From the NCBI RefSeq assembly GCF_002367995.1, contig NZ_AP018207.1:7240199-7304198 (forward strand): DNA of 64,000 nt, read 5' to 3'. The notes beneath the pieces are model-generated. The model saw nothing but the letters and a program-made list of their open reading frames with translations. It searched no databases and was not told the DNA's origin. This DNA is from Calothrix brevissima NIES-22. GTDB taxonomy: Bacteria; Cyanobacteriota; Cyanobacteriia; Cyanobacteriales; Nostocaceae. The position numbers and the translations under genes are program-made. Within the stretch, counting starts at the first letter, position 1. Every line of letters starts with the position of its first letter. Shown here in pieces: positions 1 to 14,918 of this stretch.

Positions 1-203
1 GCTAAACGCCCCAGTACTAATCCTAAGTTGCGGGCTTGACGGCGGTTTCTTGTGACTCGTTTGACAACTTTCTTAATTGACCTAGCAATCAGAAAGAAGA
101 TGACAAAGACAATTAATGCCAACACCATATTTGGAAGCAGTGCAATAAATCCATTGAGCATGTCTTGAATTTGCTTCCAAACTACGGATATTTCTGCATT
201 CAT
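1..203 (-). CDS. MscS-like mechanosensitive channel, N-terminal part (cut by window edge)
   Basis: Read on the minus strand from ATG at 203. The first 67 residues begin MNAEISVVWKQIQDML, continue with a long hydrophobic helix (ALIVFVIFFLIA) and then a strongly basic stretch (KKVVKRVTRNRRQ). A short amphipathic start, one membrane helix and a basic cytoplasmic edge are typical of the first helix of small MscS-family channels of the CmpX type, which open under membrane tension. The rest of the gene lies outside the window, so the pore helix and beta domain cannot be checked. It was found by reading the reverse strand. The family is inferred from the N-terminus only; another small membrane protein is possible. 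Confidence 0.55.
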   Translation of the reverse strand, partial: MNAEISVVWKQIQDMLNGFIALLPNMVLALIVFVIFFLIARSIKKVVKRVTRNRRQARNLGLVLGRL

Positions 204-498
204 GTTACTTACTATGACTGGTAAACTAAAGATGAAAATTCCAGCGTTGATGAGTGACACTGGTAGTAAATAGCCAAAAAGACTAGTACAAAGCCTACCA
301 GCAATAAAAGACTATTTATTGCTGGTGGACATCCACAAATTTCTTAATCAATGGATTTGCGATCTGCAAAATTGCACTGAAATTAGCGCATCTGTTGACG
401 CTTATCAACAATTTCTACTGGGGAATCATTGCTGGTAGCGGGAGTATCTACAGTTCTTTGGCGATCACCCACCATACATCTCATCGGCTCTCGAAGGA
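204..498. other. gap upstream of the peptidoglycan-binding gene
   Basis: This region separates the divergent MscS-like and peptidoglycan-binding genes. The frame of the downstream protein is open from 274 (after a tag at 271-273) to 498 without an ATG, so part may be an N-terminal extension from a GTG or TTG. No convincing promoter or RNA was seen. Confidence 0.4.
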
Positions 499-1074
499 GT
501 GCTACCTGTTAGTATGACACCAGCTAGAGGACAAACAAGCTCTACACTTACCAACATCATAGCTGATGGTAAACTCACTGAATACTCATCATCAACTGCA
601 CCTATACTTGTTCGTGGTACTGTCACACCAGCAGTCAGAGATGTACAAACCTTCCTGAAGCAGCAAGGGTTCTACAATGGATCGATTGATGGCATATATG
701 GGCCTAATACATATTCTGCCGTAGTCACATTTCAGCGATCACGTAATTTAACTGCTGATGGTCGAATTGGCCAAAATACTTGGGAGGCATTGCTGGATGC
801 CTATAATCGCAACACTCCTGTCAATTCTAATAACCTCAGCCAATACTCGCCAAACACTGCACCTATTCTGACAATTGGTAGCCAGGGTCAAGCTGTTAAG
901 GATATCCAAGCATTTTTGAAACAGCAAGGGTATTATACAGGTGCAGTTGATGGCATATATGGTTCTGCAACTGCTGCATCTGTAGAAGCATTCCAGCAAC
1001 GTGATGCCAATTTACAAAATGATGGCATTGTGGGTCGAAATACTTGGAGTACCATCCTAGATACTGTAAGTTAG
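499..1074 (+). CDS. peptidoglycan-binding protein with two PG_binding_1 domains
   Basis: A 191-aa protein with two copies of the PG_binding_1 fold, at about residues 35-100 and 120-190. Each has the pattern V(R/K)D(V/I)QxFLKQQGxY, then (S/A)(I/V)DGIYG, then a closing G(R/Q)NTW. Such modules bind cell-wall peptidoglycan and usually target secreted hydrolases or envelope proteins. No catalytic domain is visible, and no signal peptide with this start. The start is uncertain: GTG 499 has gaagga touching it, ATG 514 has the same purine run 14 nt upstream, and the frame stays open back to 274 with GTG 325 as a further option. The two domains resemble each other closely, suggesting an internal duplication. 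A hairpin at 1114-1136 follows. Confidence 0.8.
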   Translation: MLPVSMTPARGQTSSTLTNIIADGKLTEYSSSTAPILVRGTVTPAVRDVQTFLKQQGFYNGSIDGIYGPNTYSAVVTFQRSRNLTADGRIGQNTWEALLDAYNRNTPVNSNNLSQYSPNTAPILTIGSQGQAVKDIQAFLKQQGYYTGAVDGIYGSATAASVEAFQQRDANLQNDGIVGRNTWSTILDTVS

Positions 1075-1113
1075 TCTCAACAGTAGCGATCGCACTATTC
1101 TCATAACAATAAT

Positions 1114-1136
1114 ATGGCGGTCGCTGTTACCGCCAT
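1114..1136 (+). terminator. hairpin after the peptidoglycan-binding gene
   Basis: Inverted repeat ATGGCGGT / ACCGCCAT (8 bp) around a 7-nt loop, 40 nt after the stop codon. There is no T tract on the plus strand (an A-rich run follows), so it may act as a terminator for minus-strand transcription or as an mRNA-stabilising hairpin. Confidence 0.45.
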
Positions 1137-1145
1137 AACAAAAAA

Positions 1146-1192
1146 GACAGATTGTTTCATTGCCTTACGCACAGGCAATGAAACAATCTGTC
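1146..1192. repeat. perfect 20-bp inverted repeat
   Basis: Left arm 1146-1165 and right arm 1173-1191/1192 are exactly complementary over 20 bp, with the 7-nt loop TACGCAC. No T tract follows. The perfect match suggests recent origin or selection: a miniature mobile element, a recombination site or a strong hairpin. It lies at the edge of a decayed region. Confidence 0.75.
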
Positions 1193-1268
1193 CACAGTGC
1201 TGGAAGATAGACCTTTGACTTAGACTGAGCCTAAATATTTGGTTGGGTGTAAAATGGGTGTAAAGATT

Positions 1269-1354
1269 GTGAGCGAGCCTGAAAGCATTGAAAAATGAAG
1301 GTTAATGTCACCTTCCCAAGGTGAACGTCGTGGGTTCGAGTCCCATCGCCCGCT
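1269..1354 (+). pseudogene. tRNA-Gly(CCC)-like sequence: intact 3' half, degenerate 5' half
   Basis: From about 1307 the sequence is a normal tRNA 3' half: anticodon stem GTCACC, loop with anticodon CCC, GGTGA, T arm with TTCGAGT loop, and a 3' acceptor strand CGCCCGC plus T (CCA not encoded). The 5' half does not match. GTGAGCG at 1269-1275 can pair with 6 of 7 acceptor bases (one a wobble), but the D region is enlarged and lacks the conserved GG. This is either a decayed tRNA-Gly or the 3' tRNA copy left by an element that integrates in tRNA genes. Decayed coding sequence around it supports the second reading. Confidence 0.6.
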
Positions 1355-1489
1355 TTTGATTTAAATTCTTACATTCTAAGCTTTTCAAGGTTTTTAATTC
1401 TTGCCCATTCTCCTTTATCATCCCAATTATACCCTTTATCGGGTGCTTTTATTAGGTCATTAAAAGTCTTTTTGGGTGGAAAACTGGTG

Positions 1490-1760
1490 TAAGGGGTCAA
1501 TATAGCCTATCTGACACCAGGGGAAAGACGCACTTTCAACTATGGTGCTGGTTATCAACTTAATACGGTTGTTGAAACTGGGGAAACTAAAATCGAAGGT
1601 TGACGCTGATTTGCAGGGATGGAAAGACGCTGGATTGAGAACATGATGCGCTAACTATCCCTAACTATAGTCGAGAACGAAACCACAGGGGAAACGACTC
1701 AGTACATCTACGATGGCAATGGTAACAATATTAAACTTTGGCTGTATATATAGCCCTCTA
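1490..1760 (+). pseudogene. RHS/YD-repeat-like coding remnant
   Basis: Short open pieces in different frames resemble YD-repeat (RHS) proteins, most clearly near 1680-1740, where the translation includes ETTGETTQYIYDGNGN. An upstream piece near 1510-1600 reads TPGERRTFNYGAGYQ before a stop. No start codon or intact frame exists. RHS proteins are large surface or toxin-delivery polypeptides and their genes often leave such fragments. The assignment rests on the YDGNGN-type motif only. Confidence 0.35.
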
Positions 1761-2280
1761 AGTACGCAAGAGCCAGAAACTTTGCGATTTACTGAATTGG
1801 GATTTCTTATAGATTCTATAAGAGGTTTAAATGATATTTTTTAGCTTAATTCGATATTTTATGAATATCATGTTAAGATAATTCACATCTGTTTACTTAA
1901 GTAAAAATACGTACTCAATCCCACAAAATAGTTTATCTTTTTTAAAAGGGATCACAACAGAAGAGCTATTTCAGCGTGTAGTATTTAGTACTAAATTACT
2001 AAATAGAAATTTACTTTTGACTATACCTGTGCGAGCTATTGGATTATATTTTTTTCATCACTCTTAAGTAAATCCACTCAGACTAAATCATTTGTAAAAA
2101 TTCATCTTGCACAGATGCAGCAATGCTATCTCTTGTCTGCAACGGTGGGTTGTGTGTTCACAACTCATCTGCGATCGCTTGAGGCTGAGGAATAAAACCA
2201 AATTCTCAGAGGTTGTATCCTTTACCCGGATTTCTCACAAAGTTTTAAGAACGAAAAGCATTTTTTTGAATAGCAAATTC
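1761..2280. other. AT-rich non-coding region before the lipase gene
   Basis: About 0.5 kb without a credible gene. A 60-codon open frame at 2107-2289 has no recognisable features and ends just before the lipase start, so I treat it as leader sequence. The promoter of the lipase gene is expected here but no clear -35/-10 pair was identified. Confidence 0.5.
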
Positions 2281-2291
2281 AGGGGTTAATC

Positions 2292-4880
2292 ATGACTACT
2301 AATATTATTTTCGCTAACAATCTGGTAATCGATCGCACAATTCAACAGGAATGGTTGGATATTTTGGATGTAGTGCGAAACGATGCCTATTATTATCTCA
2401 GCAGTTTCCGAAATAATGCAGGGTATACAGAGAAGTTACAGACTGCTTTTGGTAATGATTTTGATGGGGAAGTAGCTAATCAATTATTTGATAGTTTTGC
2501 TCAAGGGAATTTTAGTGCTGTTCCTACTATCGAAATTGTGAATCGTAATGATATTAATGGTGCAAATGGTGCATTTTCTATCACTACAGGTAAGATTTAT
2601 TTAGCTGCTGATTTTATTAGTCAAAATTCTCAGAATCTTGATGCAATCGCGGCTGTATTGCTGGAAGAAACTGGGCATTTTGTTGATGCACAGATTAATA
2701 AAACTGATTCATTTGGGGATGAAGGTGATATTTTTGCGCGATTGGTACAAGGAAAGAGTTTAAGTGAACAAGAGTTAGCTGTTTTGCGGGCTGAGGATGA
2801 TACAGCTACAGTTGTGCTAGATGGTCAGGCGATTAAAATTGAGCAGAATATTAACACTATTACCTTCAATGCAAGCACTTTCCAATTCGATACACCTAGT
2901 TTTTCAATTGATCCGACCCAAAAAACTATCTTCTTAATTCATGGATGGAATTCAGATCCAGGTTCATTCGGAGTGAATAATGGGGGCTTATATGGGATAT
3001 TAGATTCTCAAGATACAAAAGCAAATATAATCGCAGTTAATTGGTCAAGTATCAGTAAAAATTTGTCTTATCCCACGGTTGTAGCACAGACAGATGATGT
3101 AGCCAGGGCTTTATCAGATATATTCAAAACTTTAAATATTGATCCAAATAATACTGAACTTATTGGACATAGTTTAGGCGCACACGTTTCAGGGATAGCT
3201 GGTAAAGAATATAACCGAACTACTGGGAAATTGTTAGATCGGATAATTGGTTTAGATGCCGCAGGGGTGGGTTATGGTGATCCTATATTAACTCCGCCAG
3301 ATATGCGTTTAGTCCAAGGCGATGCTAAGAAAGTAGTTGGTATTTATAGTAGTAATGCTTATCATTTGTATGGCGCTATCGTTGGGCTTTATTATGGCCC
3401 TATCTATGAGGGGACTGAGGCTTTGGGTTGGTATAATCAGTATGCTGACCTAAACATATATCTTTATACCAATAACTTTACAAGTGGAGGAAATGGTCCA
3501 GGGCAGCTATTAGGCTCTGGTCCTGGTAATTACAGTAATAATCACGCTTTTGCTAGAGATTTTTATCAAATGTTAGCGCGAGGTGATAAATACGGTTCTA
3601 CTACAGGATGGTATTGGGATGAATGGAGATTTACAAATCCGTTTAATTTTGATAGTCTATCGTCTGCTCAGGGTCAATATACAGTCAGTGTTGAGCATCC
3701 TTTTCGTTCTGGAAGGTCTATTATTGGCACTTCTGGAGATAATAGACTTCAAGTACCCACCAACAATGGTGATTACACACTCATAGGTCTTGATGGCAAT
3801 GACACGCTAATTGGAGGTGTTGGGGCTGATACTCTAGATGGTGGCTTAGGTGAAGATACTGGGGACTACTCAAGTGCAACACAAGGGATAAATGTCACAC
3901 TTGGAGGTTCAGGATTTGCTACTAATGATGGTTTCGGTAATCAAGACAGTTTGAGTGGAATTGACCATATTATTGGTAGCCAATTCAACGACACTATTGT
4001 TGGTGATAATTTTTGGGCTAATACGCTGCAAGGTGGTGCTGGTAATGATAGCCTGAATGGACTTGGTGGCAATGACACACTAATTGGTGGTGCTGGTGAT
4101 GACACACTAATCGGTGGTGCTGGTAATGACACCCTACTTGGTGGTGATGGTGAAGATACTGGGGACTACTCAAGTGCAACACAAGGAATAAATGTCACAC
4201 TTGGAGGTTCGGGATTTGCTACTAATGATGGCTTCGGTAATCAAGACAGTTTGAGCGGAATTGACCATATTATTGGTAGCCAATTCAACGACACTATTGT
4301 TGGTGATAATTTTTGGGCTAATACACTGCAAGGTGGTGCTGGTAATGATAGCCTGAATGGACTTGGTGGCAATGACACACTAATTGGTGGTGCTGGCAAT
4401 GACACTCTTTGGGGTCATGAAGGTAATGATTTACTCAATGGCGAACAAGGTAATGATTGGTTAACTGGTGAATGGGGTCGAGATATAGTCCGAGGTGGTG
4501 ATGGTGACGATGTAGTCTTAGGAGGTGCGGAAGCAAATGATGATTCGGCAAATGATACGCTATTTGGTGGTGCTGGTAATGATTTTCTCGATGGCGAACA
4601 AGGTAATGATGTGTTAACTGGTGATGCTGGTGCTGATAGATTTTCATTCAGAAATGCATACTACGGAAATGATACGATTACAGATTTCAATCGTTCGCAA
4701 GGAGATAGAATTGATATCCGCTTTGGCGCAACTTCCCTAAGCCAGTTTAATTACAACATCAGTAATGGTGCTTTGATGTTTGAGGTTAATGGTAATTTCG
4801 TTAATGGTGATCCCATTCAATTTGCTACTTTGCAAAACAATCCTAATTTCATTGTTGCCCAAGACATCATACTTGGATAA
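2292..4880 (+). CDS. secreted RTX lipase with Ca-binding nonapeptide repeats
   Basis: An 862-aa protein. Residues 1-190 form an N-terminal region with a zincin-like EETGHFVDA segment that I recall from other cyanobacterial RTX proteins. Residues about 210-440 are an alpha/beta hydrolase of the pancreatic-lipase type: the oxyanion strand IFLIHGWNSDPG and the nucleophile elbow GHSLGAH with Ser294. Residues about 490-800 carry GGxGxDxLxGGxGxD calcium-binding repeats, and the C-terminal module resembles the secretion region of type I-exported proteins. There is no N-terminal signal peptide, as expected for type I export. AGGGG at 2281-2285 gives a 6-nt spacing to the ATG. A 100-residue block is duplicated within the repeats (see the repeat entry). 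Substrate unknown. Confidence 0.85.
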   Translation: MTTNIIFANNLVIDRTIQQEWLDILDVVRNDAYYYLSSFRNNAGYTEKLQTAFGNDFDGEVANQLFDSFAQGNFSAVPTIEIVNRNDINGANGAFSITTGKIYLAADFISQNSQNLDAIAAVLLEETGHFVDAQINKTDSFGDEGDIFARLVQGKSLSEQELAVLRAEDDTATVVLDGQAIKIEQNINTITFNASTFQFDTPSFSIDPTQKTIFLIHGWNSDPGSFGVNNGGLYGILDSQDTKANIIAVNWSSISKNLSYPTVVAQTDDVARALSDIFKTLNIDPNNTELIGHSLGAHVSGIAGKEYNRTTGKLLDRIIGLDAAGVGYGDPILTPPDMRLVQGDAKKVVGIYSSNAYHLYGAIVGLYYGPIYEGTEALGWYNQYADLNIYLYTNNFTSGGNGPGQLLGSGPGNYSNNHAFARDFYQMLARGDKYGSTTGWYWDEWRFTNPFNFDSLSSAQGQYTVSVEHPFRSGRSIIGTSGDNRLQVPTNNGDYTLIGLDGNDTLIGGVGADTLDGGLGEDTGDYSSATQGINVTLGGSGFATNDGFGNQDSLSGIDHIIGSQFNDTIVGDNFWANTLQGGAGNDSLNGLGGNDTLIGGAGDDTLIGGAGNDTLLGGDGEDTGDYSSATQGINVTLGGSGFATNDGFGNQDSLSGIDHIIGSQFNDTIVGDNFWANTLQGGAGNDSLNGLGGNDTLIGGAGNDTLWGHEGNDLLNGEQGNDWLTGEWGRDIVRGGDGDDVVLGGAEANDDSANDTLFGGAGNDFLDGEQGNDVLTGDAGADRFSFRNAYYGNDTITDFNRSQGDRIDIRFGATSLSQFNYNISNGALMFEVNGNFVNGDPIQFATLQNNPNFIVAQDIILG
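3849..4400 (+). repeat. 300-bp tandem duplication inside the RTX lipase gene
   Basis: The segment starting near 3849 recurs at 4149 with only a few base differences over about 250 bp. Both copies encode GEDTGDYSSATQ, then a stretch ending NDSLNGLGGNDTLIGG. The offset is exactly 300 bp (100 codons), so the frame is kept. Confidence 0.9.
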
Positions 4881-4891
4881 GTGAATTTAAA

Positions 4892-4936
4892 GTTGAGTTG
4901 CACAGGTTAGCTGCCGCTTAATCTGTGCAACTCAGC
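4892..4936 (+). terminator. terminator-like hairpin after the lipase
   Basis: GAGTTGCACAG (4895-4905) pairs perfectly with CTGTGCAACTC (4923-4933), and a few outer pairs extend it. The loop is 17 nt. It lies 12 nt after the lipase stop. No T run follows, so it may be a processing or stability hairpin. Confidence 0.5.
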
Positions 4937-5203
4937 ATTAACGTATCCACATACAACATTCCGGGTAGCATCCAATCAAAAATCCCCAGCCTGTACTCAG
5001 TCCATCCGGTTTCAAGATATTGCCACGCCTAAGTTCCATCCAGAAACCAATCAAGGTCTGCCGAAGATGTGGGGCAAAACTTGGGATGAGGCGATCGAGC
5101 GACCACGGCGTATTTGAAGACTTGGGTGCTGCTCAATACTTGCTCAATACTATAGTTAGATAAATTTGAAGCATAATGTACTGAGAAATTAAAAAATATC
5201 AGT
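4937..5203. other. gap upstream of the 243-aa gene
   Basis: A short region with scraps of coding-like sequence (5030-5100 reads FHPETNQGLPKMWGKTWDEA in one frame, without start or family). A direct repeat, gctcaatact, occurs at about 5130-5151, and TATAGT near 5150 could be a -10 element for the operon at 5204; no good -35 was seen. Confidence 0.3.
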
Positions 5204-5935
5204 ATGAAACTAAACCAAGCGATCGCTGTTATTCAAACGATTAAAGAAGATTCGCGCAAGCGGCGGACAGAAATCTATCATCTGTTGCAAAAGCCAGAAT
5301 TGTTTGATGGATTGTCGAGGACGTATGAACCGTCGGAAGAAGAGGGGTTTGTTTATCCTGCTGAATCCAAGGTTTTGCAATTCAAAGCAGAGGATCTCTT
5401 AAAGCAGTACGAGCAAGCGGCTAAAGACCTATTTGATTTCGCTGCTACCCAAGACTTTGCCAATACTCAAGCAAAAGCTGACGTAGTCATCAATGGTACC
5501 GCCATCCTCAAAGATGTGCCTGTAACTTACCTGCTGTTCTTAGAAAAGCAAATCGAAGATATCAGAGCGCTAGTTGCTAAATTACCTATCCTGGACACAA
5601 GCGAGGAATGGCATTTAGATCAACAGCAAGACTGTTGGGCATCTTCCCCCAAAAGGACAACCAAAACCAAGCAGATATTAAAGCCAGTGGTGCTTTATGA
5701 AGCTACAGATAAACATCCGGCTCAAGTCAAAGAATCATCCGAGCAAGTGCCTGAGGGGATTTGGAAGAGTGTAAAATTCTCCGGTGCTTTATCGCGATCG
5801 CGGGTTAATCAGCTTAAAGAGCGCTTGGATACCCTGGAACGAGCAGTGATTTTTGCCAGAGAACAGGCCAATGCAATTGAAGTAGAGAAAAAATCTGTTT
5901 CAGATGCTATTTTTAGCTATTTATTTGCGCCATAA
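5204..5935 (+). CDS. conserved protein of unknown function, upstream of two tRNA-like RNAs (DUF7873-like)
   Basis: A 243-aa soluble protein with no signal peptide or membrane helix. Conserved-looking segments are GLSRTYEPSEEEGF (about residues 41-54), NTQAKADVVINGTAIL, DVPVTYLLFLEKQIEDI, a DKHPAQV segment near residue 178, and KSVKFSGALSRSRVNQL followed by a helical C-terminus ending SDAIFSYLFAP. From memory this matches a family also seen in actinobacteria and phages and labelled DUF7873; I could not search. No catalytic motif was recognised. The stop codon is only 6 nt before the first structured RNA, with no room for a separate promoter, and a strong terminator follows the second RNA, so protein and RNAs probably share one transcript. 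A role in binding or processing those RNAs is inference. Confidence 0.75.
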   Translation: MKLNQAIAVIQTIKEDSRKRRTEIYHLLQKPELFDGLSRTYEPSEEEGFVYPAESKVLQFKAEDLLKQYEQAAKDLFDFAATQDFANTQAKADVVINGTAILKDVPVTYLLFLEKQIEDIRALVAKLPILDTSEEWHLDQQQDCWASSPKRTTKTKQILKPVVLYEATDKHPAQVKESSEQVPEGIWKSVKFSGALSRSRVNQLKERLDTLERAVIFAREQANAIEVEKKSVSDAIFSYLFAP

Positions 5936-5940
5936 TTAAA

Positions 5941-6074
5941 TTGGAGTACAGACTGAAGTTAAAAAGATGGGGAGTTTGTAGGTTCAAATCCTACCCCTTG
6001 GACTATCCAAGGGTAGCCAAATTGGTATAGGCACCCCAGTTAATTTAATTATCAAGCTTAGATTATTACTCCAG
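5941..6074 (+). ncRNA. Y RNA-like RNA 1: circularly permuted tRNA module on an outer stem
   Basis: All elements of a tRNA are present, but in permuted order. Anticodon-stem 3' strand TGGGG (5968-5972), 5-nt variable loop, T stem GTAGG/CCTAC (5978-5982/5990-5994) with loop TTCAAAT, acceptor 3' strand CCCTTGG (5995-6001), 5-nt linker ACTAT, acceptor 5' strand CCAAGGG (6007-6013, perfect 7 bp), T8 and A9, D stem GCC/GGC with GG in its loop (6016-6032), A26, and anticodon-stem 5' strand CCCCA (6034-6038, 5 bp). Instead of an anticodon loop both ends continue into GTTAAA/TTTAAT (5958-5963/6044-6049) and a closing stem TGGAGTA/TACTCCA (5942-5948/6067-6073). Bacterial Y RNAs (YrlA) have such a tRNA-mimicking domain on a Ro60-binding stem. 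A permuted functional tRNA is less likely because no anticodon is evident. Confidence 0.8.
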
Positions 6075-6105
6075 CTTTCATGTGAGAAGCGTCTGCCAGT
6101 ATCAC

Positions 6106-6264
6106 TCGCTTTGGTCTATGCTGTTGCAACACGGGTTCAAATCCTGTTCTCGGCTTCTTGGAAAATCGCTCCACTTGGCTTTGTGCCAAGTCCGCGTTTT
6201 CTGCTTTATCGTGCCGAGATGGTCTAGTGGCAAGACTGCAAAGCTTTAATCTGAACCACTGCGA
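6106..6264 (+). ncRNA. Y RNA-like RNA 2: permuted tRNA module with a hairpin-capped acceptor stem
   Basis: A second permuted tRNA, unrelated in detail to the first. T stem ACGGG/CCTGT (6131-6135/6143-6147, one wobble) with loop TTCAAAT, acceptor 3' strand TCTCGGC (6148-6154), acceptor 5' strand GCCGAGA (6213-6219, perfect 7 bp), T8, D stem GTC/GAC (6222-6224/6234-6236) with GG in the loop, and an anticodon-stem equivalent TGCAAAGC (6237-6244) pairing with 6120-6128 with one bulged G. The 58 nt between the acceptor strands form a hairpin: GAAAA/TTTTC, CGC/GCG and ACTTGGC/GCCAAGT around TTTGT (6161-6201). Outer pairs TGGT/ACCA (6112-6115/6255-6258) and TCGC/GCGA (6106-6109/6261-6264) close the RNA. 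The exact ends are unknown. Confidence 0.72.
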
Positions 6265-6307
6265 TCGGAAATAAAAAGACTGTGTGGGACGTAAAAACAT
6301 CAACTGA

Positions 6308-6339
6308 CCCCGGAGCAAGGATATCGCTCTGGGGTTTTT
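6308..6339 (+). terminator. strong intrinsic terminator ending the protein-plus-RNA locus
   Basis: CCCCGGAGC (6308-6316) pairs with GCTCTGGGG (6326-6334) over 9 bp (one G-T) around a 9-nt loop, followed by TTTTT. It lies 44 nt after the closing stem of RNA 2 and is the first good terminator downstream of the gene at 5204. Confidence 0.85.
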
Positions 6340-6534
6340 AACTGACAACTCTCATGTATAATGAAAAATTAAAGTAAGTCAGTAATGGCAATAAGTAAAT
6401 GATTTACATCACTATTACCATTACGACAATCAGGTATTTCCAATTCAAAAAATATTCCATTCTTATTGCTGACATTCAACAGTCAACGACTTTAAGCGGA
6501 ATAATTGATTTTTTGGAGTTCCCTAAAATTTAAC

Positions 6535-7128
6535 CTAGTTGGAAGGCATCATTAAACGCTGAGGACTAGGAGGAGAAGAAAGGTTTAAGAAGGTGATTAG
6601 TTTCAGTGTGCGACGGCTAATTTTCCAACGCCCATTTTGTTGGATAACTTCATCTTCATAAGTACCATTAGCAACATCAATGCTAGTTTCAGAACGTTTG
6701 TGAGTCGCATGGAGATAGGAAGTCATTGTTGCCTTATTACCATTAACGTTAATGTTGACTGTACCTATCAAGTGTTGGGTAGCTACATAGCCATTTCCTT
6801 GGAATACAGCATTGACAAAATCTGCCCAAGCATTTGTGCCGATATATGTCTGAGTGTCGCCATTAGGAAAAACTGCTGTAATCGTTGCATTCGGTGTAAA
6901 GCAGTCAGTATAAATATTCTTTCCTCCTATGAGATCTCCTCTGCCAATTGCATCTGTTCCCAAAGCGTAGCAAACCGTCAATTTTTCAATATCTGATTGA
7001 GCATTAGGTTGCGACGCAAAAGCAAATTCAAATGTCCCTCCCAGTAGTACAAGTACAGTAGCAACTACTGCTATTAAGGTTGTCATACCCGGAAAACTCA
7101 TCAATCTCTGATATTTGTTTTTTTTCAT
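6535..7128 (-). CDS. exported NTF2/SnoaL-like protein
   Basis: A 197-aa protein. Residues 1-40 are a signal peptide or anchor: basic MKKNKYQR, hydrophobic LIAVVATVLVLLGG, then an AFA-S site near residue 38. The rest is an NTF2-like cone (SnoaL_4 type): an initial helix DIEKLTVCYALGTDAIGRGD, a TDCFTPNATI(TAVF) strand, WADFVNAVFQGNG, QHLIGTVNINVNGNKATM, and DEVIQQNGRWKISRRTLKL near the end. This fold holds small ligands or acts as isomerase or dehydratase; its substrate cannot be read from sequence. It is divergent from the kinase hybrid at 7271, and a shared regulatory region lies between them. Confidence 0.7.
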   Translation of the reverse strand: MKKNKYQRLMSFPGMTTLIAVVATVLVLLGGTFEFAFASQPNAQSDIEKLTVCYALGTDAIGRGDLIGGKNIYTDCFTPNATITAVFPNGDTQTYIGTNAWADFVNAVFQGNGYVATQHLIGTVNINVNGNKATMTSYLHATHKRSETSIDVANGTYEDEVIQQNGRWKISRRTLKLITFLNLSSPPSPQRLMMPSN

Positions 7129-7270
7129 TTAATTTGGCTACCCTACGTAAGTCATTACCAATTGTTCTACCTAGAATTGCGCATCTAAATATAGATGTCA
7201 ATGTTTTTACACCAATGCTAAATACTGTTGCATATTTGGGAATACTAAATGCGAAACTCGCAAATATACA

Positions 7271-10200
7271 ATGAGTATGGTTAGCACTCTAGTTAGTATT
7301 CCCGGATATCAAGTCAAAGAAATCATTTATGATGGTTCCAAGACTTTGGTATATCGAGCAATCCGAGAACAAGATTCCTTCAGAGTAGTCATCAAACTGC
7401 TGAAAAATTCTTATCCTAGCTTTAGCGAACTGGTACAATTTCGTAATCAATATACTATTGCTAAAAATCTTGACTTCCCAGGAATCATCCAAACCTATAG
7501 CTTAGAAACTTACCAAAATGGTTATATATTGGTGATGGAAGACTTTGGGGGAATTTCCCTCAAGGATTATTTTACTCATCATAATTTACATATAAAGCCT
7601 GTACAGGAATTCTTACCAATTGCTATATCTCTGTGCGATACCTTAGATTTTCTCTATCATCAGAAAATTATTCATAAAGATATTAAACCCGCCAATATTT
7701 TAATTAATCCCAATACAAAACAAGTTAAATTAATAGATTTTAGTATTGCTTCCTTACTACCCAGAGAAACAGAATCTCTAAAACATCCTCAAGTTTTGGA
7801 AGGAACAATATTCTATCTATCACCCGAACAAACGGGGAGAATGAATCGGGTAATTGACTATCGCACTGATTTTTATTCTTTAGGCGTAACTTTTTACGAA
7901 TTATTAACTGGTCAATTACCATTTCAATCAGCAGATCTGATGGAGTTGGTACATAGTCATATTGCTAAAATGCCTGTCGTATTAGGGAACAGGGAAGAGA
8001 TGCCGCCAGTACTGTCAGATATTGTGATGAAACTGATGGCGAAAAATGCGGAAGACCGTTATCAGAGTGCATTAGGATTAAAGCATGATTTAGAAAAATG
8101 TTTAGCACAAATTACAGAAACCGGGGAAATTCATGATTTTGAAATTGGTAAGCGGGATATTTGCGATCGCTTTCTCATCCCGGAAAAATTATATGGTAGA
8201 GAAAAGGAAGTTGAGCAGCTATTAGCAGCATTTGCTAGGGTTTCTCAAGGTGATAGCGAACTTATGTTAGTTGCGGGGTTTTCTGGTATTGGTAAAACTG
8301 TCGTAGTTAACGAAGTTCATAAACCCATTGTTAAACAACGGGGATATTTTATTAAAGGCAAATTTGACCAGTTTAATCGAAATATTCCTTTTTCAGCTTT
8401 TGTGCAAGCATTTCGGGATTTGATGTCGCAATTACTCGCTGAAAGTGATGCTCAAATCCAACAATGGAAAAGTAAAATTATTCAGGTATTAGGAAACGAT
8501 GGACAGGTAATTATTGATGTTATTCCCGAATTAGAAAGAATTATTGGTCAACAACCACCTGCAACAGAATTATCTGGGACTGCGGCTCAAAATAGATTTA
8601 ATTTATTATTCCAGAATTTTCTGCAACTATTTACCAGCAAAGAGCATCCTTTAGTCATATTTTTAGATGATTTACAATGGGCTGATTTTGCTTCATTGAA
8701 GTTAATTCAATTATTAATAGCAGAAACTAATCAAGGATATTTACTCTTAATTGGTGCATATCGAGATAATGAAGTCTCGCCAGCACATCCGTTGATTATG
8801 GCTTTAGATGGGATTAGCAACGCGGGTGCGATTGTAAATACACTCACCCTCCAACCTCTGAGTCAATTACACTTGAATCAACTCGTAGTTGAGACATTAA
8901 AGTGTGCAGAAAATTTAGCATTCCCTCTTTCGCAGTTGATTTATCGCAAAACTCAAGGTAATCCTTTTTTTGCTACACAATTTCTCAAGTCATTACATGA
9001 AGATGGATTAATTATTTTTAATTGGCGAGAGGGATGCTGGGAATGTGATATTGCTCAAATCAATCAGCAAACACTCACTTCAGATGTTGTTGAGTTTATG
9101 GTATTTCAATTACAAAAATTACCAGAATTGACTCAACAAGTATTAAAGCTTGCTGCTTGTATTGGCAACTCTTTTGATTTAAATACATTGGCGATTGTTT
9201 GCCAATTATCGGTAGTAGAAACGGCTGCATCTTTATGGAAAGCCTTGCAGTCAGATTTTATTTTGCCCCAAAGTGCAGTTTATAAGTTTTATCAAGATAC
9301 TGAAGAACAAACTCAACTGACAATTAGCGATAAGCACAGCTTAACGCCTTTGGCGTATCACCACACAGCTAAATATAAATTCTTACATGACCGCATTCAA
9401 CAAGCAGCTTATTCTCTGATTCTGGAAGTAAACAGACAAAAAACACATTTACAAATCGGGCGATTGCTTTTACAAAGTATTCCCACAGCCAAACAAGGAG
9501 AACAGATTTTTGATATTGTCAACCAGTTAAATATTGGTAGGGTATTAATTGACGATATCCAAGAACTAAATCAATTAGCGCAATTAAATTTGATTGCTGG
9601 AACAAAAGCTAAAGCTGCGACTGCTTATACTGCATCTGTGGAATATTCTTTGGTTGGGTTAGAATTACTTAACGAAGATAGCTGGGAAAAGCAATATCAA
9701 TTAACATTAGAATTACATACATTAGTTGCTGAAGCTGCTTACTTAAATGGTAATTTTGAGCAGATGCAACATTTTACAACAATTATTCTGCAAAATGCCA
9801 AAACATTATTAGATAAAGTTTCTATCTACGAAATTCAGATTACTGCTTGCATTATGCAAAGCAAACAAATAGAAGGAATCCAAATTGCCCGCTCAATTCT
9901 GCAACAATTAGGCATTACTTTTCCCGAACAACCAACACCCTTAGATATTCAACAAGGTTTACAGCAAGTTATTGACAATTTACAGGGTAAAGCCATTGCG
10001 GAATTAGTTCATTTACCGATAATGACAAAACCCGAAAACATCGCAGCAATGAAAATTTTAATGCGAGTGCTTCCTGCGGCTTTTCAAAGCGATCCGGTAA
10101 TGGTTCCCTTAATCACTTTTGCAATGGTTCAGTTATCGATTAAATACGGCAATACATCAGTTTCTGCCTATGGTTATAGTTTGTATGGATTGCTGCTTTG

Positions 10201-12727
10201 TGGAGCCTTCAATGAGATTAACGCTGGCTGTGAATTTGGTAAATTAGCTTTGGGCATATTAGCCAAATTTAATTCCTCAGAACTAAAAGCGAAGATATTA
10301 ACTGTGGTTAATGCCCACATAGCCCATTGGCAACAGCATATTAAGGACACATTAGCACCTGCGATTGAAGGTTATTCTACAGGGCTAGAAACAGGAGATC
10401 TAGAATATGCTGGTTATTGTGCTTATATTTATCCAGTTCATTCTTTTTGGTTAGGCAAAGAACTAGAAATTTTAGAGAAAGACTTTAGTATTTATGTTAA
10501 TTCTTTGAAAAAAATCAAGCAGCAAGTCGCTTTCTATTGGAGTTCAATTTATTACCAGACTGTGTTAAATCTCCAGGGTAAGTCTGGAAATTTATATAAG
10601 CTAGTTGGCACAGCATATGATGAAGAAACTATGTTAATTACGCATCAAAAAGCCAATGACTTGTATACAATTAATCACCTGTTTATTAATAAACTATTCA
10701 TCAGTTATTTATTTTATGATTATGACCAAGCATTAAACAATGCGGAAATGGCAGAACAGTCTCTAGGAGGAGTTACTGGGTTGGTTGTTGTGCCTCTGTT
10801 TTATTTTTACGATTCTTTGGTACGATTAGCTTTGTATTCTAGAGTTCCAGTTTCTGAACAACAAGCAATTTTAGAAAAAGTCCAAACTAATCAGGAAAAA
10901 ATGGAAGTTTGGGCTAATCATGCGCCGATGAACTATTTACATAAATTCAACCTAGTCAATGCAGAAAAATATCGAGTTTTAGAAAGAAAATATGAAGCTG
11001 GAGATTGGTACGATCGCGCTATTTTTCTTGCCAAAACTAACGGTTACACTCAAGAAGAAGCCTTAGCCAACGAACTAGCGGCTAAATTTTACCTTGATTG
11101 GGGAAAAGAAACTGTCGCCGCAGGATATATGCAACAAGCCTATTATTGTTATACCCGTTGGGGCAGTTTAGCCAAAACTGATGACTTAGAAACAAGCTAT
11201 CCCCAACTACTAAAACCCATCCTGCAACAAAGACGAATTAACCCCAATCCCTGGGAAACAATTTCCACTATTGTCTTTCGTAAAACATCTTCGTCTGCCC
11301 ATAGTTCCACGGCTAGTACCAGCAATATTTCTGAAATTCTAGATTTTACCAGTGTACTCAAAGCGGCTCAAACTATTTCTAGCAGTATCGAATTAGATGA
11401 ACTCCTCACCAGTCTCACCAAAATTATCTTAGAAAACTCCGGTGCTAAAAAATCTGTATTAATTCTTCCCCAAGAAGATACTTGGAAAATTCGAGCAATC
11501 ACTTCTATTAATTCTCAAGGTGCAATCCAAACAATCCTTGACTTACAATTACTAGATATCTGTCAAGATGTACCCATAAAAATCATCAATTATGTCAAAA
11601 ATACCCAATCATCTATTGTTATAGATAATTGTCAAATAGATATTCCTGGGCTAATTAGCGAATATATACTTACACATCAACCAAAAAGTATATTATGCAC
11701 GCCAATTATTAACCAAGGAAATTTAGTGGGTATTCTCTATCTAGAAAATCAAATCACAAGCGGAGTATTTACCCAAGAACGCTTGCAAGTCATTAATCTA
11801 CTTTCCTCCCAAGCAGCTATTTCTTTAGAAAATGCTCGACTTTATCAAAAAGTCCAACAAACACTAGAAGATTTACAACAAGTTCAATTACAAATTGTCC
11901 AAAGTGAAAAAATGTCAGCTTTGGGAAATTTAGTAGCAGGTGTAGCCCATGAAATGAATAATCCTCTCGGTTTTATTTCTGCTAGTCTTAAACAAGCTAA
12001 ACCTACAATTGCTGATATTAGCGAACATCTAAAATTATATCAGCAAACTCTACCTCATCCAACTGAAGAAATTATTGAGCACGCCGCAGAAATTGACCTA
12101 GATTACATCCAAGAAGACTTACCAAAGATGATTGATGCAATGGTTATGGCTTGCGATCGCCTGAAAAATATCAGCACTAGTCTTCGCACTTTTTCACGAG
12201 CAGACAAAGATTACAAAGTACCTTTTAATATTCATGAAGGTATCGATAGCACCATTTTAATTCTGAAACATCGTCTCAAAGCTAACGAACAACGTCCAGC
12301 TATTGAGGTAGTTATTGACTATGGTAATTTACCACGGGTTGAATGCTTTCCTGGACAATTAAATCAGGTATTTATGAATATTTTAGCCAATGCCATTGAT
12401 GCTTTAGAAGAAGCAAATAATGGTCGGAGTTTTGCAGAAATTCTAGCAAATCCCAACCAAATTAACATTAAAACTTCATTACAAGGGAAGCAAGTAAAGA
12501 TTTCTATTGCTGATAATGCTCAAGGGATGAGTGCAGAAGTAAAACAGCAGATATTCGACCATTTATTTACTACGAAAGCTGTAGGTAAAGGAACAGGATT
12601 AGGATTGGCGATCGCTCGGCAAATTGTAGTAGATAAACACGCTGGGTTACTAGAATGCAATTCCTCTTTAGGAAAAGGCACTGAGTTTATCATTCAAATA
12701 CCTATAGCGAGCCTAAATGAGTTGTAA
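7271..12727 (+). CDS. Ser/Thr kinase - AAA ATPase - GAF - histidine kinase hybrid
   Basis: An 1818-aa signalling protein. A protein kinase fills residues 1-275 (catalytic HKDIKPAN with Asp137; the DFG position is DFS at 156). A P-loop ATPase follows (GFSGIGKT, Lys342; DDLQWAD Walker B), then a long helical TPR-like region to about 1370, a GAF domain (about 1370-1520), a short coiled coil, a histidine-kinase phosphoacceptor box (VAGVAHEMNNPLGF, His1560) and an HATPase domain ending with GTGLGLAIA. Similar hybrids are common in filamentous cyanobacteria and resemble HstK-type proteins. They are soluble; input is probably sensed by the GAF or TPR region. No response regulator is adjacent. ATG 7277 is an alternative start; neither has a clear ribosome binding site. 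Confidence 0.92.
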   Translation: MSMVSTLVSIPGYQVKEIIYDGSKTLVYRAIREQDSFRVVIKLLKNSYPSFSELVQFRNQYTIAKNLDFPGIIQTYSLETYQNGYILVMEDFGGISLKDYFTHHNLHIKPVQEFLPIAISLCDTLDFLYHQKIIHKDIKPANILINPNTKQVKLIDFSIASLLPRETESLKHPQVLEGTIFYLSPEQTGRMNRVIDYRTDFYSLGVTFYELLTGQLPFQSADLMELVHSHIAKMPVVLGNREEMPPVLSDIVMKLMAKNAEDRYQSALGLKHDLEKCLAQITETGEIHDFEIGKRDICDRFLIPEKLYGREKEVEQLLAAFARVSQGDSELMLVAGFSGIGKTVVVNEVHKPIVKQRGYFIKGKFDQFNRNIPFSAFVQAFRDLMSQLLAESDAQIQQWKSKIIQVLGNDGQVIIDVIPELERIIGQQPPATELSGTAAQNRFNLLFQNFLQLFTSKEHPLVIFLDDLQWADFASLKLIQLLIAETNQGYLLLIGAYRDNEVSPAHPLIMALDGISNAGAIVNTLTLQPLSQLHLNQLVVETLKCAENLAFPLSQLIYRKTQGNPFFATQFLKSLHEDGLIIFNWREGCWECDIAQINQQTLTSDVVEFMVFQLQKLPELTQQVLKLAACIGNSFDLNTLAIVCQLSVVETAASLWKALQSDFILPQSAVYKFYQDTEEQTQLTISDKHSLTPLAYHHTAKYKFLHDRIQQAAYSLILEVNRQKTHLQIGRLLLQSIPTAKQGEQIFDIVNQLNIGRVLIDDIQELNQLAQLNLIAGTKAKAATAYTASVEYSLVGLELLNEDSWEKQYQLTLELHTLVAEAAYLNGNFEQMQHFTTIILQNAKTLLDKVSIYEIQITACIMQSKQIEGIQIARSILQQLGITFPEQPTPLDIQQGLQQVIDNLQGKAIAELVHLPIMTKPENIAAMKILMRVLPAAFQSDPVMVPLITFAMVQLSIKYGNTSVSAYGYSLYGLLLCGAFNEINAGCEFGKLALGILAKFNSSELKAKILTVVNAHIAHWQQHIKDTLAPAIEGYSTGLETGDLEYAGYCAYIYPVHSFWLGKELEILEKDFSIYVNSLKKIKQQVAFYWSSIYYQTVLNLQGKSGNLYKLVGTAYDEETMLITHQKANDLYTINHLFINKLFISYLFYDYDQALNNAEMAEQSLGGVTGLVVVPLFYFYDSLVRLALYSRVPVSEQQAILEKVQTNQEKMEVWANHAPMNYLHKFNLVNAEKYRVLERKYEAGDWYDRAIFLAKTNGYTQEEALANELAAKFYLDWGKETVAAGYMQQAYYCYTRWGSLAKTDDLETSYPQLLKPILQQRRINPNPWETISTIVFRKTSSSAHSSTASTSNISEILDFTSVLKAAQTISSSIELDELLTSLTKIILENSGAKKSVLILPQEDTWKIRAITSINSQGAIQTILDLQLLDICQDVPIKIINYVKNTQSSIVIDNCQIDIPGLISEYILTHQPKSILCTPIINQGNLVGILYLENQITSGVFTQERLQVINLLSSQAAISLENARLYQKVQQTLEDLQQVQLQIVQSEKMSALGNLVAGVAHEMNNPLGFISASLKQAKPTIADISEHLKLYQQTLPHPTEEIIEHAAEIDLDYIQEDLPKMIDAMVMACDRLKNISTSLRTFSRADKDYKVPFNIHEGIDSTILILKHRLKANEQRPAIEVVIDYGNLPRVECFPGQLNQVFMNILANAIDALEEANNGRSFAEILANPNQINIKTSLQGKQVKISIADNAQGMSAEVKQQIFDHLFTTKAVGKGTGLGLAIARQIVVDKHAGLLECNSSLGKGTEFIIQIPIASLNEL

Positions 12728-12842
12728 AATTTTTCGTTGAGGCAGGAAACAGCCTTGAAAATTGTGCGTTTCGCTATTGTGAAGTGGATATTTGAGTGGT
12801 TGATTCGACACACTAGCACCTCTAAAACTGAAATGCAATGTC

Positions 12843-14918
12843 TCAGTCTTGATAACAGCGTAAACGTTGCAGTAATTGTTCGCGTTCTGGTGATGGTGTG
12901 ACATTCTCAGCAATGGCGATCGCAGTTTTAGTATCTCCTGTACGCACTAGATTTAAAGCAATCCGCTCCCAAATACGAGAACGTTCTGCAATCGGTGGTA
13001 AGGAAGACTCTGAGCCATTGCGGAGGGTTTGGATGGGAATATTGAGGAGCGATCGCGCTTTTGTCAAATTACCTTGAGTCAGATTCAGTTCCACAACTCG
13101 TAAACCAAAGTCCAACTTTTCCCTAGGATTTCTCCCAGCATAACCAATGAAACGGGATGCTTCCTCTGGCTGACGATTGGCGATCGCTTGATTACCAGCT
13201 AAGGTAGCAAAATCTACTTGCTGAAGTAACTTTAATCTTTCTGCCAGTGTAAAATAAGTTGATGGCGTTGCGGCAAATTCGGAACTAATTGATAGCAATA
13301 ATTGTGCTTGCTGTGGCAATGCTGTTTCTGTTTGTATCAATGTGACAATTCGATTCAATAGTTGATCGGCTGGACGATTGGTGGAAATCAAAGCATTGGC
13401 GATCGCCGCATGAGTTGTGATGGCGGTGGGTAAAGCAGAAATGCTATTAGCTATTACTTGGCTACGACTGAATAATTGATCGGCAACAGCAACATTACCA
13501 CGGCGATGGAAAGCTTGAGCAAACCGCAGCAATCGCCGCACATCGGTTTTTTCCCCAGCAATTCTAGCTTCTGCATCCTGGGTTTGTCCGGCTTCAAGGG
13601 CGGCTATGGCAATATTATCTAGCCAGCGATCGCTTTCATCGAAATAGCCTGCATCTATCTGTACGATCATCGGACGTGGTACCATTTGCCGCGCAGTTGT
13701 AAACTGCTTATTAGCAATCAAATCTTGCAAAACAATTCCCAAGACATTCACCGCACGCAGTTCAGAAATCAGGGCTTTGAGTTCTGGGTGATAGCCGCGA
13801 GTTTGAGATAAATTTGACATCTCGCCATACCATTCATTATCGAAGCGTCCACCAAACTGATCGGCTATTTTAGCGGCTTTGGCATCAGCAACTAAACGGG
13901 CGATCGCAGATTTGCGGATTTCTGGCTGGTTAAATTTGCGACTTTCTGCGGCGATTGTTAACCAACTTCTAGCCCGGAAAGAATTAGGGCGTTTCATTAG
14001 GGAAACAATTTGCTGCGATCGCCCTAAATCTCCACTGGGGGCATAGTGTAGCACCAAAGTCATTAATTTAATTTCCCGTTGTTCCACATCTTTAATTGCT
14101 AGTGCTGCTTTGAGCAATGGATCTAGTAATTTCTTTGCTTTTACTGGGTCTCTAGCTTGAAAGTAGGTAGCAGCAATCTGAGTGACGGTAATATCAGGAT
14201 CGTAATCTTGCGGAGAAAGTTGCTTTAGCACCTCTAAAGCTTTTGTGGGTTGGTAATTTTGGAGATATAAATTAACTATTTGTGATAACGACTCACGTTG
14301 TGCGTAGGTATCTTTCAGATTTTTGATAGTTTGCTCAAACCCATAGTTGAGAGAAGATGCAGCTTCCGTCGGTTGGTCGAGAGCAATCCACCCTTCTGCA
14401 AGACGAATGTAAGCCGCAACTAAATCTTTAGGAGTATTGCGAATTCCTGATACCGACTCAGACGCAATCTGTAGCGTTTGTTTTCCTATGGTAAAGTGTC
14501 CAATTTTTCCATAGGCGATCGCAGATTCTGTCAAGATATGAGTTTTGCCTAAACTATACCCACTCGGTAAAGGTTTAGCTAAGACCACGATTTGATCGAG
14601 AATGGTAGGAAGTTTTGGATTATCCTTATATGTCAGTGATTGTACTTGAGTAGCAATTGCCTTGAGCGCAAAATCTAATGTCTGGATTGTAAAAGTTGTA
14701 TCTCCTCGCCGTTCAGCATTTTCTAGCTCTCTGATAATTACGGGGAGCCTATCAGTCGGGGACATTCCAGAAATTTCGTTCCAGCGTCGGGTACTTTCAC
14801 CAGTTAGCTCTACACGGCAAGCTTTAGAAATAGTTATCCTAGCATCTGCCGCATAAATGGGAACAGAGTAAATTAGTTGAGAAGCAATAATCAAAGCGAG
14901 CGATCGCGTTAGTATCAT
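12843..14918 (-). CDS. exported helical-repeat protein of unknown function
   Basis: A 691-aa protein starting with a signal peptide (MILTRSLALIIASQLIYSVP, then an AA-D type site near residue 25). The remainder is almost entirely alpha-helical with TPR-like pairs, for example GKTHILTESAIAYGKIG, AYIRLAEGWIALDQPTEAAS, and TGDTKTAIAIAENVTPSPER at the end. No catalytic motif was seen. Such proteins usually serve as periplasmic or lumenal scaffolds. It converges with the kinase hybrid, leaving about 115 bp between the stops. The family was not recognised. Confidence 0.65.
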   Translation of the reverse strand: MILTRSLALIIASQLIYSVPIYAADARITISKACRVELTGESTRRWNEISGMSPTDRLPVIIRELENAERRGDTTFTIQTLDFALKAIATQVQSLTYKDNPKLPTILDQIVVLAKPLPSGYSLGKTHILTESAIAYGKIGHFTIGKQTLQIASESVSGIRNTPKDLVAAYIRLAEGWIALDQPTEAASSLNYGFEQTIKNLKDTYAQRESLSQIVNLYLQNYQPTKALEVLKQLSPQDYDPDITVTQIAATYFQARDPVKAKKLLDPLLKAALAIKDVEQREIKLMTLVLHYAPSGDLGRSQQIVSLMKRPNSFRARSWLTIAAESRKFNQPEIRKSAIARLVADAKAAKIADQFGGRFDNEWYGEMSNLSQTRGYHPELKALISELRAVNVLGIVLQDLIANKQFTTARQMVPRPMIVQIDAGYFDESDRWLDNIAIAALEAGQTQDAEARIAGEKTDVRRLLRFAQAFHRRGNVAVADQLFSRSQVIANSISALPTAITTHAAIANALISTNRPADQLLNRIVTLIQTETALPQQAQLLLSISSEFAATPSTYFTLAERLKLLQQVDFATLAGNQAIANRQPEEASRFIGYAGRNPREKLDFGLRVVELNLTQGNLTKARSLLNIPIQTLRNGSESSLPPIAERSRIWERIALNLVRTGDTKTAIAIAENVTPSPEREQLLQRLRCYQD

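Follow-up and report, generated by a model that had tools for sequence, protein, structure and literature searches.

Which role could be played by a bacterial RNA that carries two transfer RNA (tRNA) folds, both in permuted order, right behind a protein gene? This question is raised by a locus of the cyanobacterium Calothrix brevissima NIES-22 (genome size 9.26 Mb). The window, that is, the whole stretch of DNA which was analyzed, comprises 64,000 nucleotides of contig NZ_AP018207.1 (positions 7,240,199 to 7,304,198). Coordinates given below count from its first letter and all features lie on the plus strand. An initial annotation had described two permuted tRNA-like modules behind an open reading frame of 243 amino acids and had considered a new Y RNA system, an RNA-guided element or a tRNA-mimic element using this protein. 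We find that the gene (5204–5935) codes for a DUF7873 protein (Pfam PF25283) and that the twin RNA, predicted at about 5942–6336 from its folding z-score and a covariance model, is encoded next to nearly all DUF7873 genes examined. The RNA structure is conserved, its halves fit as tRNA halves do, and gene and RNA co-occur; presumably the RNA is also produced as such. A DUF7873 ribonucleoprotein showing two tRNA mimics is in our view the most economical reading.

Both modules could be read directly from the sequence and are as annotated. In module 1, the tRNA 3′ half (5978–6001), made up of the T-arm with the loop TTCAAAT (5978–5994) and the acceptor 3′ strand (5995–6001), precedes the tRNA 5′ half (6007–6032) with the acceptor 5′ strand (6007–6013), T8 (6014) and a D-arm containing GG (6016–6032). 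All seven acceptor pairs form, and the strands are joined by a loop of five nucleotides, ACTAT (6002–6006), at a place where the loci tend towards N73-C74-Y75. Module 2 has the same order, with the 3′ half at 6131–6154 (T-arm with loop TTCAAAT 6131–6147, acceptor 3′ strand 6148–6154) and the 5′ half at 6213–6236 (acceptor 5′ strand 6213–6219, T8 6220, D-arm with GG 6222–6236). Again seven of seven acceptor pairs form, and here the acceptor loop measures 58 nucleotides (6155–6212) and, according to the fold, contains an inner hairpin.

The description as two tRNA modules holds for these parts, but the structure is larger and includes flanking helices, tandem hexamers and a hairpin with a conserved loop. 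The folded part begins 6 nucleotides past the DUF7873 stop codon, at the distance originally noted, with an enclosing helix P1 (5942–5948 pairing with 6067–6073 in the free fold). A tandem hexamer motif YUNARN-YUNA follows at 5953–5962 and another copy lies 3′ of the module 2 D-arm (6245–6254), both recognized from motif counts across loci. The putative anticodon stem of module 1 is formed by 5968–5972 (3′ strand) and 6034–6038 (5′ strand, backed by the comparison of matched and mismatched loci described below), that of module 2 by 6124–6127 (3′ strand) and 6238–6241. The annotated single strong hairpin after the pair is present at 6306–6336. It has 11 bp, the loop AAGGATATC and a short T run behind it and is likely a terminator. 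A terminator scan reported none, probably because the hairpin loop of 9 nucleotides exceeds the limit of 8 set in the scan. The folding z-score is −3.07 and none of 100 shuffles was as stable. In the free fold, the acceptor stem and the T-arm of each module are formed, but not both D-arms. The covariance model, R1, which was built from 29 of the 69 two-module loci introduced below, matches the window at 6107–6265 (45.2 bits) and 5932–6084 (37.6 bits). Neither ARAGORN, searching for ordinary tRNAs, nor Rfam at its cut-offs has a match in the window, as expected for the permuted order.

We found DUF7873 in 73 of 50,697 phage records, in 4 of 72,556 plasmid records and in 373 viral-contig stretches. 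The phages have Vibrio, Gordonia, Rhizobium, Klebsiella, Serratia, Arthrobacter, Pseudanabaena, Rhodococcus and Microcoleus as hosts. Loci were taken from cyanobacterial genomes, from 8 of the 73 phage records (no Rhizobium phage and 1 of 29 Vibrio phages), 3 of the 4 plasmid records and 80 of the 373 viral contigs. We dropped 11 near-duplicates, the repeats L001, L008, L009 and L013, locus L102, whose contig ends at the gene, and L010/L011, in which the DUF7873 gene is broken and the RNA is absent. The non-redundant set with readable downstream sequence then counts 93 loci, 75 viral and 18 bacterial (3 of them from plasmid records).

A descriptor requiring at least six of seven acceptor pairs and at least four of five T-stem pairs found at least two permuted modules in 69 of the 93 loci, one in 20 and none in four. 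In 4650 dinucleotide shuffles at least two modules arose three times and one module 123 times. The 650 bases upstream of the gene served as control (92 loci) and gave at least two modules in 3 and one in 9; an earlier unpruned run had yielded 62 module hits from 1580 shuffles, and 22 from the upstream sequence of 79 loci. R1, which includes none of the 24 other loci, found a module in 22 of these. Taken together, descriptor and model place at least one permuted module in 91 of the 93 loci. For L004, L012, L022, L028, L030, L066 and L083 the R1 scores are 26.4–53.8 bits and the assignment rests on the position beside DUF7873; R1 matches at about 55 bits or below also turn up elsewhere. In the 69 two-module loci, the module pairs were picked by spacing and at least two are mis-assigned (L027, L043), and the first module of L098, with a 92-nucleotide loop and 6/7 acceptor pairs, is doubtful. 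Thus, the expectation formulated beforehand that homologues of the protein should have such RNAs nearby is borne out.

The modules are recognized as tRNAs once their order is restored. Of 138 modules, un-permuted and closed with a generic loop, ARAGORN called 134 tRNA in one or more of the 35 length variants tried, compared with 65 of 138 under the same rule when the halves were mismatched, i.e., taken from other loci. In native order only 2 of 138 were called. We conclude from these sequence comparisons that the two halves of a module are co-adapted as tRNA halves. The second expectation set beforehand, covariation in the stems, also holds for the tRNA-like stems across loci. When 29 module 2 sequences went through RNAalifold-type consensus folding, with no structure supplied, the three tRNA stems (T, acceptor and D) emerged together with an outer and an inner helix, and 26 of the 28 pairs predicted show changes on both sides. 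For 40 module 1 sequences the outcome was the same three tRNA stems, in which 14 of 15 pairs changed on both sides; for both modules together this amounts to 40 of 43 pairs. These alignments and the mismatch test are a fairer measure than the counts of paired cells (822 and 824 of 828), which are biased by the pairing that the descriptor requires. RNAalifold recovered neither P1 nor anticodon stems in either module alignment. Strands from matched loci scored higher than those from mismatched loci for the anticodon stems of module 1 (11.5 v 8.5) and module 2 (12.2 v 8.5) and for the outer helix of module 2 (19.1 v 15.9).

It could be argued that the modules are decayed or tandem ordinary tRNA genes which look permuted by chance, and R1 indeed gives cross-hits in the vicinity of ordinary tRNA genes, with scores reaching about 53 bits. 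We regard the chance of this being so as negligible: ARAGORN sees no ordinary tRNA in the window, the own halves fit far better than mismatched ones, both modules carry compensatory changes, and two or more modules per locus are frequent in the loci and nearly absent from the shuffles (69/93 vs 3/4650).

Several further elements of the RNA recur. Ahead of module 1, YUNARN hexamers stand in tandem in 59 of 69 loci, against 4.1% of shuffles, and 26 of 69 loci, but none of the shuffles, have three in a row. The regions between the modules (25/69 loci, shuffles 6.7%) and after module 2 (22/69, shuffles 4.4%) have copies less often, and in a control stretch they are at background (4/69, shuffles 6.4%). 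A 3′ hairpin with a GGAUA/GGGUA-type loop is found in 44 of 68 loci compared with 68 of 1360 shuffles. Between outer and inner helix of module 2, an alignment read by eye shows a conserved internal loop, AUCGACC / CUUAAAYG, whose 3′ side differs in the four cyanobacterial rows. We infer that the hexamers and the GGAUA/GGGUA-loop hairpin are candidate sites for the protein.

The protein itself matches PF25283 over residues 2–241 of 243 (328.4 bits at a cut-off of 27, E = 4e-98). An AlphaFold2 model, predicted to consist of helices and long strands, has a mean predicted local distance difference test score of 90 and a predicted template modeling (TM) score of 0.65. Searching the PDB with this fold gave no match at E ≤ 0.001. 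Nor did a library of viral models at this threshold: the top entry, A0A514TZW7, is weak (E = 0.0021, TM 0.21), as is a protein of Vibrio phage Vp_R1 (E = 0.019, TM 0.40/0.53). A profile search of PDB sequences returned only the chains DYNA_1b7 and DA7_2 (E = 0.02 over 41 residues), a single-sequence search nothing below E = 0.7, and in PHROGs and NCBIfam DUF7873 found no match. In the literature searched, which left out preprints and most subscription papers, DUF7873 is not mentioned and we recognized no description of the pair. Rfam likewise holds no family to which the RNA, in the window or in 17 loci searched, matches at the cut-off.

Gene and RNA together form a cassette of about 1.2 kb. 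In a blastn comparison of positions 1–13000 of the window with the 6.7-kb loci of two Nostoc carriers, the only common block is 5156–6344; identity is 77% over 5156–6344 with one carrier and 70% over 5174–6341 with the other. Two relatives of the gene come from named hosts, Nostoc carneum and Nostoc sp. 106C. Four relatives that lack DUF7873 have a downstream flank which is 94–95% identical from 6374–6378 onward; the upstream flank has no match in these four, and a clean empty site was not seen. The cassette has a scattered distribution in the genus, with 3 of 8 genomes carrying it. As the sharp limits coincide with gene and RNA, these appear to move as one unit, and bacteria apparently carry the cassette as a patchy, mobile trait.

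We also searched the 388 genomes of the class, of which 11 carry DUF7873. This R1 search scored seven candidates per genome under strict filters. Full-length R1 matches of at least 58 bits occur in 10 genomes, and in nine of these DUF7873 lies alongside; the 58-bit cut was chosen after seeing the list and the next entry (G205, 55.3 bits) is without DUF7873. The remaining DUF7873 genomes are G270 (42.3 bits, adjacent) and that of the window (45.2 bits). Weaker R1 matches, some covering the whole model, are found in 310 of 388 genomes at E ≤ 0.01, and 9 of 10 such loci that were checked (L124–L133) hold 1 to 26 ordinary tRNA genes.

Is the RNA then just the 3′ end of the DUF7873 message? A cis-acting element of the 3′ untranslated region (UTR) that stabilizes, processes or regulates the mRNA and has no function in trans would explain why in most loci the RNA closely follows the stop codon (median of 97 nucleotides to the first T-loop in 69 loci, and 6 nucleotides to the fold in the window). 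Yet in L055 gene and RNA are on different strands and convergent, which points to separate transcription, and the RNA cannot be merely a 3′ UTR there. In L028 a gene for an RRXRR-HNH protein and in L053 about 700 nucleotides separate gene and RNA. Moreover, two full tRNA folds with co-adapted halves exceed the needs of a cis signal. We therefore consider this explanation improbable.

The architecture had been equated with that of YrlA, the bacterial Y RNA that works with Ro60 (Rsr). In both cases a permuted module of T-arm, acceptor and D-arm, an order which the YrlA alignment also spans, is carried on a stem and encoded beside the gene of a partner protein; phage copies of YrlA have been reported as well (PMC7765460). 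A double YrlA which binds Ro60, a TROVE protein, with DUF7873 as accessory is thus conceivable. Besides the common topology, there are weak matches to the YrlA model (Rfam RF02553), 26.6 bits for module 1 of the window and 28.3 and 26.5 bits for the two modules of the Streptomyces copy L031. These scores are far below the cut-off of 69 bits, and none of the 17 loci searched reached it. Furthermore, YrlA has one module and Ro60 whereas here there are two modules and DUF7873, which in the searches run resembles Ro60 neither by sequence nor by fold; the DUF7873 RNA also differs by the frequent N-C-Y/CCA at the acceptor loop, the tandem hexamers and the GGAUA-loop hairpin. The absence of a Ro60/TROVE gene, claimed at the outset, holds for the part of the window that was searched, but the genome has two TROVE matches about 1.9 Mb away. 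The control genome of Deinobacterium chartae also contains both families. Nevertheless, DUF7873 and TROVE occur independently: among 58 relatives, 20 have TROVE, 7 a DUF7873 sequence (one broken) and 4 both, and two genomes (G028, G034) carry the cassette without a TROVE gene. With a sub-threshold YrlA score and cassettes lacking TROVE in these two genomes, we reject membership in the Y RNAs; a new Y RNA system in the proper sense is quite unlikely. As a side observation, the TROVE (Ro60) gene in the genome of the window (G000:C1:5310977-5312703) is apparently interrupted, with frames of 316 and 295 amino acids about 1 kb apart; in the matching relatives listed it is one frame of 534–605 amino acids.

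A further precedent for a 3′ half ahead of a 5′ half is found in the permuted tRNA genes of algae and archaea, in which the halves are separated by an intervening sequence of 1–74 bp (PMC3978253). Could the modules be precursors of two working tRNAs that are rejoined at the anticodon loop? The order of 3′ half, spacer and 5′ half would agree. In module 2, however, the strands on the anticodon side enter conserved helices and an internal loop instead of a seven-nucleotide anticodon loop. Unlike in permuted tRNA genes, the halves belong to a larger conserved RNA that is linked to the gene of a protein. Such a precursor is very unlikely.

At the ends of the modules, C74 is present in 118 and Y75 in 125 of 138 modules, and in viral loci CCA is encoded in 43 of 112 modules compared with 18 of 228 ordinary tRNAs. 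In L058 a gene for a 186-residue HNH protein sits inside the acceptor loop of module 1 while all seven acceptor pairs are kept. C74, the partly encoded CCA and this inserted gene suggest a possible end maturation in the manner of tRNAs. The discriminator differs between the modules, with A73 in 52 of 69 first modules and U73 in 50 of 69 second modules. With ties split, the D-arm of module 1 has tRNA-Leu as its best match in 56.8 of 69 loci; Leu makes up 16% of the 325 ordinary tRNAs compared (the list held each tRNA twice, which leaves the proportions unaffected). Module 2 has no clear isotype, Arg and Lys leading with 10.8 of 69 each. Bacterial leucyl-tRNA synthetase is mostly indifferent to the anticodon.

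The boldest alternative is a charged RNA linked to translation in the way of the two-piece transfer-messenger RNA (tmRNA). Once its ends are processed and CCA is added, module 1, perhaps also module 2, would be aminoacylated and enter the elongation factor or the ribosome, with DUF7873 as a dedicated protein partner in the role that SmpB has for tmRNA. Differing discriminators, C74 and Y75 and the Leu-like D-arm speak for it. Permuted tmRNAs, which function as two pieces (PMC3978253), also have in common with the DUF7873 RNA a permuted tRNA-like domain and a spacer at the acceptor end. The DUF7873 RNA differs by having two tRNA-like folds with D-stems and a partner from an unrelated family. 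It has no anticodon loop, and its acceptors vary strongly in sequence, 46 and 58 of 69 being distinct. The tmRNA model RF00023 matched neither the window nor the RNA in the 17 loci, although no tag reading frame was searched for. We judge a tmRNA-like role as unlikely. A single tmRNA match among these loci lies outside the RNA: in Gordonia phage Phendrix (L026, 1063–1591; Rfam 89 bits, cut-off 47) it stands in a tRNA cluster near DUF7873.

We come back to the ribonucleoprotein with two tRNA mimics. Specifically, we suggest a two-part particle of DUF7873 and an RNA that displays its permuted mimics to tRNA-handling enzymes as decoy or adaptor, and we consider the chances of this proposal to be even. 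DUF7873 would bind the RNA, and the probable site is one of three elements: the YUNARN hexamers in tandem, the internal loop AUCGACC/CUUAAAYG or the hairpin with the GGAUA loop. Then, the acceptor loops could be opened by tRNA end processing, by RNase P at the 5′ side and by RNase Z or exonucleases together with CCA addition at the 3′ side. Each module would then consist of two pieces that base pairing keeps together as a tRNA-like end, an arrangement also seen in permuted two-piece tmRNA. The paired mimics might then engage proteins that handle tRNA, either enzymes of maturation, modification or charging or nucleases which attack tRNA, and could divert or tether these. Of 87 viral loci (near-duplicates included), 39 adjoin ordinary tRNA genes; the likeliest benefit for a phage would be that the tRNA pool is protected or controlled during infection. 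In bacterial loci, where the flanks are shorter, such genes were found in 2 of 18. This neighborhood is shared with the tRNA arrays of phages and cyanobacteria; unlike these, the modules are nearly all missed by ARAGORN and are nearly always found alongside DUF7873. For YrlA, a role as competitive inhibitor of an anticodon nuclease was suggested (PMC7790460), and jumbo phages are known to carry tRNAs and repair enzymes with which they counter an attack of the host on tRNA (PMC7824862). For this reason we prefer, by analogy and with moderate confidence, a decoy or adaptor function in a tRNA-centered conflict. The tRNA-mimic element considered at the outset thus stands; that it uses the protein rests on genetic linkage. 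For an RNA-guided element no support turned up, and no test aimed at RNA guidance was run.

A number of observations weigh against this proposal. Only 51 of 138 modules encode CCA, and acceptor loops of 2–5 nucleotides (2 in L014, 5 in the window) would be hard to cut. P1 fails the comparison of matched and mismatched loci (15.9 v 14.7), though it forms in the window fold; with the outer helix and the anticodon stems, the matched median is reached by 10–18% of mismatched pairs. In the sequence examined, L036 and L059 have DUF7873 but no RNA. Conversely, G380 (locus L122) has both modules but no DUF7873; on visual inspection, another gene seems to have taken the place of the strand preceding module 1, and this orphan RNA appears to be a relic. 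A permuted module with seven of seven acceptor pairs (L124 1540–1605, in G205, the 55.3-bit match) and a partial R1 match of 46 bits in G229 (L128, without ordinary tRNA genes) likewise lack DUF7873. In L083 (after 3738) and L047 (after 908) the core of module 1 is lost or degenerate by eye, although module 2 and the hexamer strand are kept. Ordinary tRNA genes are missing from the flanks examined in 48 of 87 viral loci. Finally, DUF7873 has no match at E ≤ 0.1 in the PADLOC defence library, and membership in this known anti-phage collection is rejected.

Regarding the surroundings, we clustered neighboring frames of at least 70 amino acids within at most about 3 kb on each side and found no widely recurring flank gene. 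Going by where one example of each is located, the large clusters (73, 62, 35 and 17 loci) represent further frames of the DUF7873 gene, and the next groups have 5 or 4 loci. One candidate, a shared neighbor resembling a VWA protein, was discarded as Pfam gives no VWA match. The viral loci L051, L052, L067 and L083 have a common neighboring protein downstream, of which the copy tested is only sub-threshold in Pfam. The permuted module of L124 sits near a cyanobacterial tRNA group. In the window, the cassette lies between the genes of an 862-residue lipase-like protein with Ca-binding repeats (2292–4880) and of a 1818-residue protein kinase/sensor fusion (7271–12727), both named by eye.

Taken further, the cassette might define a new class of tRNA-mimic ribonucleoproteins in cyanobacteria, actinobacteria and phages of several phyla. 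The tRNA end-processing machinery would mature the RNA into two split heads ending in CCA, one Leu-like with A73 and one with U73, which are possibly aminoacylated and act on translation or the tRNA pool during phage infection. In this full form we offer the idea tentatively and consider it doubtful.

In summary, a protein family of unknown function, widespread with 373 relatives on viral contigs, has a near-constant RNA partner. This large structured RNA with two split tRNA folds joins the few natural permuted tRNA mimics. It offers a testable handle on a possible manipulation of host tRNA biology by phages and, in addition, a natural system in which tRNA end-processing enzymes could be studied on permuted substrates.

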